A program made the position numbers and the translations under genes. The notes beneath the pieces are model-generated. The model did no database searches. It saw only the letters and a list, made by a program, of their open reading frames with translations, and was not told where the DNA came from. 64,000 nt of DNA from Gammaproteobacteria bacterium 54_18_T64 (GTDB lineage Bacteria > Pseudomonadota > Gammaproteobacteria > Pseudomonadales > Porticoccaceae), in assembly GCA_002162825.1 (NCBI GenBank), contig MAAU01000059.1, forward strand, positions 41,604-105,603. The letters are read 5' to 3'. Shown here one piece after another: positions 34,773-37,348 of this stretch; position 1 is the first letter of the stretch, and each line of letters begins with the position of its first letter.

Positions 34773-35957
<1,185 letters not shown>

Positions 35958-35982
35958 CCAGCAGCGCCACTGAGCCCGGGCC

Positions 35983-36879
35983 ATCAAAAACCTCTTCAAG
36001 CAAAGCTCTTCCCCACTGCGCATGCTGATCCTGGCCCTGGCTGCGCTGGCACTAATCGCCCTCGATTCCTTCACCCACTGGTTACGCCCGACCCACGTTT
36101 GGCTAGAGCCCCTGGTTCAACCCTTTCAATGGGCATCGACTCTGCCCATGCGCTGGCGCGAGTGGAACGATGAGTCGCTGGAAAGTCGCGCGGTGATTAT
36201 TGCCAACAATGACAAACTAGAGACCGAAATCCTGGTCTATAAAGCCCAGCTGCAGCGCATGGCCGAATTGTCGGCGCAAAACCAGCAACTCAAGAGTCTA
36301 CTCAATGGTGCCGAGCTGCTGAAGAACAGCGTCCTCGTCACCGAATTGGTGGGCATCTCACCCGACCCCTTCCACCACGTCATCACCATCAATCGTGGCG
36401 CTGCTGACAATATTCGCGCGGGCCTGGCGGTAATCGATGGCGAGGGCCTGATGGGCCAGGTCACAGAGGTCTTCGAGCACCACAGCCGGGTACTATTGAT
36501 CACCGATTCCCGCCACGCCCTGCCGATTTACAACCTGCGCAACAAGGTGCGGGGCATTATAGAGGGCAGCGGCGACTTCCAGCGCCTGCGCCTGCGCCAC
36601 GTCTCGCCAACTCAGGATATTCAGATCGGCGACACGCTGCTCAGCTCCGGCCTCGGCGGGCGCTTTCCCTCCGGCTACCCGGTCGGCACCGTCAGCGCCA
36701 TTAACAAAGACCCCGGCCAGGCCTTCATCGAGGTCAGCGTCACCCCCGCCGCCAAGGTCGACCGCAGTCTGCGCCTGCTGGTGGTGTTTTCAGCGGTCGA
36801 AGCCCTCAATAACTATCCTCAGACTGAGCCCGAGCCCCGCCCACAACGTTCTGACGCCAGTCATGCCACGGAGCAATAG
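35983..36879 (+). CDS. mreC: Rod shape-determining protein MreC (probable non-ATG start; first ATG is 36022)
   Basis: In-frame (I/M)KNLFKQSSSPLRMLILALAALALIALDSF from the ATC at 35983; MreC body VLITDSRHALPIYNLRNKVRGIIEG...GGRFPSGYPVG. Confidence 0.85.
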   Translation: MKNLFKQSSSPLRMLILALAALALIALDSFTHWLRPTHVWLEPLVQPFQWASTLPMRWREWNDESLESRAVIIANNDKLETEILVYKAQLQRMAELSAQNQQLKSLLNGAELLKNSVLVTELVGISPDPFHHVITINRGAADNIRAGLAVIDGEGLMGQVTEVFEHHSRVLLITDSRHALPIYNLRNKVRGIIEGSGDFQRLRLRHVSPTQDIQIGDTLLSSGLGGRFPSGYPVGTVSAINKDPGQAFIEVSVTPAAKVDRSLRLLVVFSAVEALNNYPQTEPEPRPQRSDASHATEQ

Positions 36880-37348
36880 CCCTCTACCGCTGACGGCCAT
36901 TGGCCTCAGCCTACTGGGCGCGCTCTTTCTTTACAGCCTGCCCCTGCACAACAGCCTCGTATTCTGGCGCCCACCTTTTGTGCTACTGATCAGTATCTAC
37001 TGGTTGTTAGTCCTGCCCCAACACCTGGGCATTACCTTTGTTTGGCTCCTCGGTCTGCTGCTCGACTTACTCTACGGCAACGTGATAGGCCAGAATGCCT
37101 TGGCAATGTCCGTCACCGCCTATCTGCTAAAGACTCAGGAATACCGCGTACGTCACCTCAACCTGCCCTTCCAGTGTCTGGCCGCGCTATTTATCGTGAT
37201 CATCTACCAGACACTGTGGGTCAGTACGCGCCTGATTTCGGAAGATATCGCCCTCGGCTGGCGTGTCTTCTATCCGGCACTGAGCAGCGCCCTTATATGG
37301 CCCCTACTGGCGGGCACGCTGTACAGACTGCACCACCTCTTCCATTAA
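36863..37348 (+). CDS. mreD: Rod shape-determining protein MreD
   Basis: Hydrophobic MreD-type protein overlapping the mreC 3' end; mreBCD order. Confidence 0.92.
   Translation: MPRSNSPLPLTAIGLSLLGALFLYSLPLHNSLVFWRPPFVLLISIYWLLVLPQHLGITFVWLLGLLLDLLYGNVIGQNALAMSVTAYLLKTQEYRVRHLNLPFQCLAALFIVIIYQTLWVSTRLISEDIALGWRVFYPALSSALIWPLLAGTLYRLHHLFH

Follow-up and report, generated by a model that had tools for sequence, protein, structure and literature searches.

A probable AUC start codon for mreC, conserved as AUC, AUU or AUA in related Gammaproteobacteria

Translation of mreC in the window (the whole 64,000-nucleotide stretch of DNA that was analyzed) very probably begins at an AUC codon at 35983, judging by comparison with related genomes. 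That AUC starts MreC was one of the options raised in the original prediction, and it is strongly supported by a column of AUC, AUU or AUA codons (together AUH) in relatives and by coding constraint that begins at the ATC. The mreBCD gene order is intact, with mreB upstream and mreD downstream of mreC:

34923 to 35957, forward strand: mreB (model NF010539, 531.9 bits); probable start at the ATG at 34923, which we take to be the start from the usual MreB N-terminus; the longest open reading frame begins at 34875
35958 to 35982, forward strand: mreB-mreC gap of 25 nt, with an in-frame TGA at 35971-35973 and a weak Shine-Dalgarno sequence, GAG, at 35972-35974 (about -1.9 kcal/mol)
35983 to 35985, forward strand: proposed initiator ATC of mreC, in a column that reads ATC, ATT or ATA in relatives
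35986 to 36021, forward strand: codons 2-13 of mreC, encoding KNLFKQSSSPLR, a conserved cytoplasmic tail that is absent from the product of a start at 36022
36022 to 36024, forward strand: ATG, the first in-frame canonical codon of mreC, judged to be internal Met14 and not the start
35983 to 36879, forward strand: full-length mreC with a 298-aa product, from the reading frame's translation and its match to the MreC model
36863 to 37348, forward strand: mreD (TIGR03426, 91.6 bits), with a canonical ATG start, overlapping the end of mreC

In the mreC frame, the TGA at 35971-35973 is followed by GCC CGG GCC and then by the ATC at 35983-35985. After the ATC the frame continues AAA AAC CTC TTC AAG CAA AGC TCT TCC CCA CTG CGC and reaches ATG at 36022-36024. 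These bases and codons are identical to those first described for the 5' end of the gene. A mechanical list of open reading frames begins mreC only at 36022, giving 285 aa. A profile search identified the product as MreC (TIGR00219, 162.1 bits against a cut-off of 92.75), and in the product translated from 35974 the match already starts at residue 9, which lies before the ATG at 36022. The alignment to the Escherichia coli MreC N-terminus given in the original prediction is correct: E. coli reads ATG AAG CCA ATT TTT AGC CGT GGC, and the ATC of the window stands in its initiator column.

The 301-codon frame from 35974 was used as query against 194 related genomes, with a match in 183, and loci were brought into the same orientation with their initiator codons aligned in one column. 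The family loci are the best 30 family matches, with no random draw. All 30 carry AUH at the column (ATC in 24, ATT in 4, ATA in 2), and ATG, GTG or TTG occurs in none. Six congeners from separately assembled genomes are among these 30, five of them named Gammaproteobacteria, Cellvibrionales or Porticoccaceae in the genome collection, and all six have ATC, ATT or ATA. Conservation of the ATC in close relatives, which the original prediction had proposed as a check, is thus borne out at the level of AUH. At order level, 36 of 41 loci have AUH, the rest being ATG (2), GTG (1), TTG (1) and one unclear; large single-contig genomes read TAG GAG CCG GTC ATC AAA CCG ATA TTC at the mreC start. Across the rest of the class (GTDB Gammaproteobacteria), AUH was found in at least 82 of 128 loci after one-codon register corrections, with four more loci resolved by hand; these loci were sampled from the highest-scoring matches to the model, so the proportion should not be read as unbiased. 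The start was originally regarded as a local oddity, and its class-wide conservation speaks against that view. ATA was enriched at the start in the class sample (0.23 versus 0.10, p = 0.005), considered as a sign of freedom from isoleucine usage, but the enrichment is absent in the family and order samples and is not relied on.

Columns other than AUH are mostly ATG, GTG or TTG. ATG is found in Enterobacteria, Aeromonas and others, including E. coli and Aeromonas caviae, and Acinetobacter has GTG; AUH is therefore not required for MreC function. Two class-level loci apparently start mreC at GTT, L145 and possibly L116, the latter ambiguous as an ATC precedes the GTT. At L172, L189, L177 and L208 the distance from AUH to the LF motif differs or the motif is lost, and Shine-Dalgarno spacing still indicates ATC or ATA. 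In Legionella adelaidensis (L294:571-620, NZ_LR134431.1) the annotation begins mreC at a GTG that overlaps the end of mreB and may not be the true start.

Substitution patterns among seven congeners place the edge of the coding sequence. Codons 2-13 of mreC show pS 0.609 and pN 0.081, close to codons 14-90 (pS 0.603, pN 0.053), and the eight in-frame triplets upstream of the ATC show pS 0.48 and pN 0.38. The step in protein-coding constraint falls exactly at the ATC, and the bases immediately before it show no protein-like evolution.

Ribosome-binding signals were compared over 148 AUH loci. Pairing with the anti-Shine-Dalgarno sequence peaks for 8-mers ending 4-6 nt before the AUH codon. The best energy has a median of -7.4; the corresponding values are -3.3 for randomly chosen upstream positions and -3.8 in front of ATG starts, although the random draws are not independent and the very small p-value of that comparison overstates the difference. 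Most of the 148 loci have a Shine-Dalgarno sequence at initiation distance, and only a weak one is present in the window (-1.9) and in most of its genus. Within that genus (L002-L008) a strong Shine-Dalgarno sequence before mreC has mostly been lost, with about -2 kcal/mol against -8.9 kcal/mol in the rest of the family. An association of AUH with strong and ATG with weak Shine-Dalgarno sequences was significant when phylogeny was ignored and not significant over phylogenetically independent pairs, of which only four were supported, and compensation of this kind was not upheld. Local folding at the mreC start gave no structure common to the loci, and an Rfam scan found no element in the mre region; its one sub-threshold chance match lies elsewhere.

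The bases alone would also fit other starts. Initiation at the ATG at 36022, the truncated MreC of the original prediction, would give a protein 13 residues shorter. That ATG is the first canonical codon of the frame, and relatives commonly have an ATG, GTG or TTG 10-17 codons into the gene. The position of this downstream codon varies, however, and in L014-L016 the first one is not reached until 46 codons into the frame, beyond the membrane helix, so the option cannot apply there. It also ignores a tail in whose codons purifying selection acts as it does elsewhere in the gene, it leaves MreC without the positively charged segment preceding the membrane helix, and the Shine-Dalgarno peak precedes the AUH codon. 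We consider this start very unlikely and rejected it on the constraint and on the relatives that lack the codon.

A start further upstream, at an unrecognized codon or through entry from mreB by frameshift or readthrough, would make the ATC an internal isoleucine codon. A few relatives do have an in-frame ATG, GTG or TTG upstream: among the 115 AUH loci of the order and class samples, 14 have one within 20 codons, and none precedes the AUH codon in 29 of 30 family, 30 of 36 order and 71 of 79 class loci. Only the three codons GCC CGG GCC separate the in-frame TGA from the ATC in the window, and the Shine-Dalgarno sequence is placed for the AUH codon. The column moreover exchanges with ATG, GTG and TTG, as expected of a start codon rather than an internal isoleucine. 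With upstream codons neither conserved nor evolving as protein, this reading is hardly credible and was rejected. The chance that a sequencing or assembly error hides a true ATG is negligible. A single C/G difference would yield ATG, and the source genome is a draft of 98 contigs, but the same error would have to recur in all 30 family loci; the assemblies of the six congeners and of 23 other genomes of the family, each made separately, show ATC, ATT or ATA at the same place, and the relatives rule the error out.

The AUH state was followed on a tree of 206 tips, made from joined C-terminal MreB and N-terminal MreC sequences with the start codon excluded. The tree was built by a fast method on short proteins with changes counted without direction, and it requires 18 changes between AUH and canonical states, whereas shuffled labels gave 39 on average and never fewer than 34. 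On this tree the AUH state is evidently inherited by descent, with several switches.

Other genes served as controls. infC is the textbook gene with an AUU start, and E. coli pcnB likewise starts at AUU. In most of the relatives infC has ATT or ATC behind a Shine-Dalgarno sequence, in the arrangement "SD, spacer, ATT/ATC AAG AAA", like mreC; a search of the window's own genome, which is about 83% complete, gave no infC match. Canonical starts are available for mreD in the relatives, and in most of the pcnB loci examined an ATG ahead of (M)LKR is conserved in place of AUH. The AUH start of infC and the canonical starts of mreD and pcnB indicate that the trait is gene-specific and that the method does not find AUH starts everywhere.

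With initiation at AUC, fMet-tRNA would read a near-cognate codon, as at infC, its anticodon pairing with AUH at the first two bases only. The product would be a 298-aa MreC that presumably begins with Met and carries the basic tail ahead of the membrane helix. At the first two bases IF3 accepts only Watson-Crick pairs, whereas at the third it is more permissive, though still selective (PMC10158994), and it represses starts other than ATG, GTG and TTG, such as the infC AUU and the Streptomyces sigR GTC (PMC5472188). We infer that mreC is initiated weakly and that IF3 disfavors its start. The likeliest outcome would be that MreC, encoded between mreB and mreD, is made at a low rate that is sensitive to IF3. 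A strong, well-placed Shine-Dalgarno sequence may offset the weak codon in most lineages; since it is mostly weak in the window's genus, initiation there may also be helped by ribosomes that finish translating mreB 25 nt upstream.

A possible reason for keeping the AUH codon is that it limits the amount of MreC relative to MreB and makes MreC synthesis responsive to the status of IF3 and the initiation complex. We give this role in IF3 response and stoichiometry about an even chance. Inertia is a possible explanation as well, though it leans toward the improbable: a strong Shine-Dalgarno sequence would make the weak codon good enough, and the codon would drift, neutral or compensated, with no regulatory role. 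Strong Shine-Dalgarno sequences do accompany most AUH starts, at least 18 changes of state are counted on the tree, and lineages with ATG do well. Yet AUH is held over most of the class when a single third-base change to G gives ATG, the changes are clustered far below the shuffled expectation, and the Shine-Dalgarno sequence is weak in the window's genus. A broader regulatory reading, which we regard as speculative and rather unlikely, is that the AUH start is an ancient gammaproteobacterial control by which IF3 and the availability of 30S initiation complexes set MreC, and thereby elongasome activity and rod shape, and that it was lost in enterobacteria and a few other lineages on the move to ATG. 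If this is true, wall elongation is tied to translation capacity.

The proposed control of mreC resembles several known systems. infC, which encodes IF3 and has an IF3-autoregulated AUU or AUC start, shares with mreC an AUH codon behind a Shine-Dalgarno sequence, conservation over a wide clade and frequent misannotation (PMC5472188). It differs in that infC encodes the sensor itself, closing a feedback loop, whereas the mreC product is a cell-wall elongation protein without a known link to translation. In E. coli pcnB a weak AUU start limits a dose-sensitive protein, as may be the case for mreC, but pcnB is not kept as AUH in this clade and has ATG instead. The GTC start of Streptomyces sigR is noncanonical, IF3-repressed and misannotated and fixes the relative amounts of two proteins from the same operon (PMC5472188), as is seen or suggested for mreC; it is GTC rather than AUH and belongs to another clade and function. 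The GTT columns of L116 and L145 are reminiscent of it. In Yersinia pestis, rcsD-Hpt has a functional AUU start, proven by mutation (PMC10191623), which is likewise comparable, although it is an internal start in one species and not the start of a gene throughout a clade.

AUH starts are already known as a kind, and the mreC case is unusual for its breadth and pathway. No earlier report of an AUH start of mreC was found in the literature searched, whose coverage leaves out many journals. To our knowledge, noncanonical starts have been characterized experimentally in very few bacterial genes. With an AUH start conserved over most of a class, a shape gene from an unrelated pathway would join infC as another clade-wide example, and the fidelity of translation initiation would be connected with cell-wall growth. 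An important shape gene thus seems to be controlled by a "weak start" that escapes genome annotation.

Standard annotation permits only ATG, GTG and TTG, so the MreC N-terminus is probably wrong in many genomes. A Pseudomonas aeruginosa record (CP123788.1, L077:219-269) reads TAG GAG CGG ATC ATC AAA CCG CTA TTC at the mreC start, and its annotation begins mreC at a GTG in the membrane helix region, about 16 codons after the ATC. This annotated start is probably an error, and P. aeruginosa probably belongs among the species with an AUH mreC start. A misplaced start in this species would affect expression constructs, fusions and topology work. In Cupriavidus metallidurans, two mutations are reported in the mreB-mreC intergenic region, for which a stem-loop or a small RNA has been suggested (PMC13192273); effects of these mutations on mreC initiation could also be considered.
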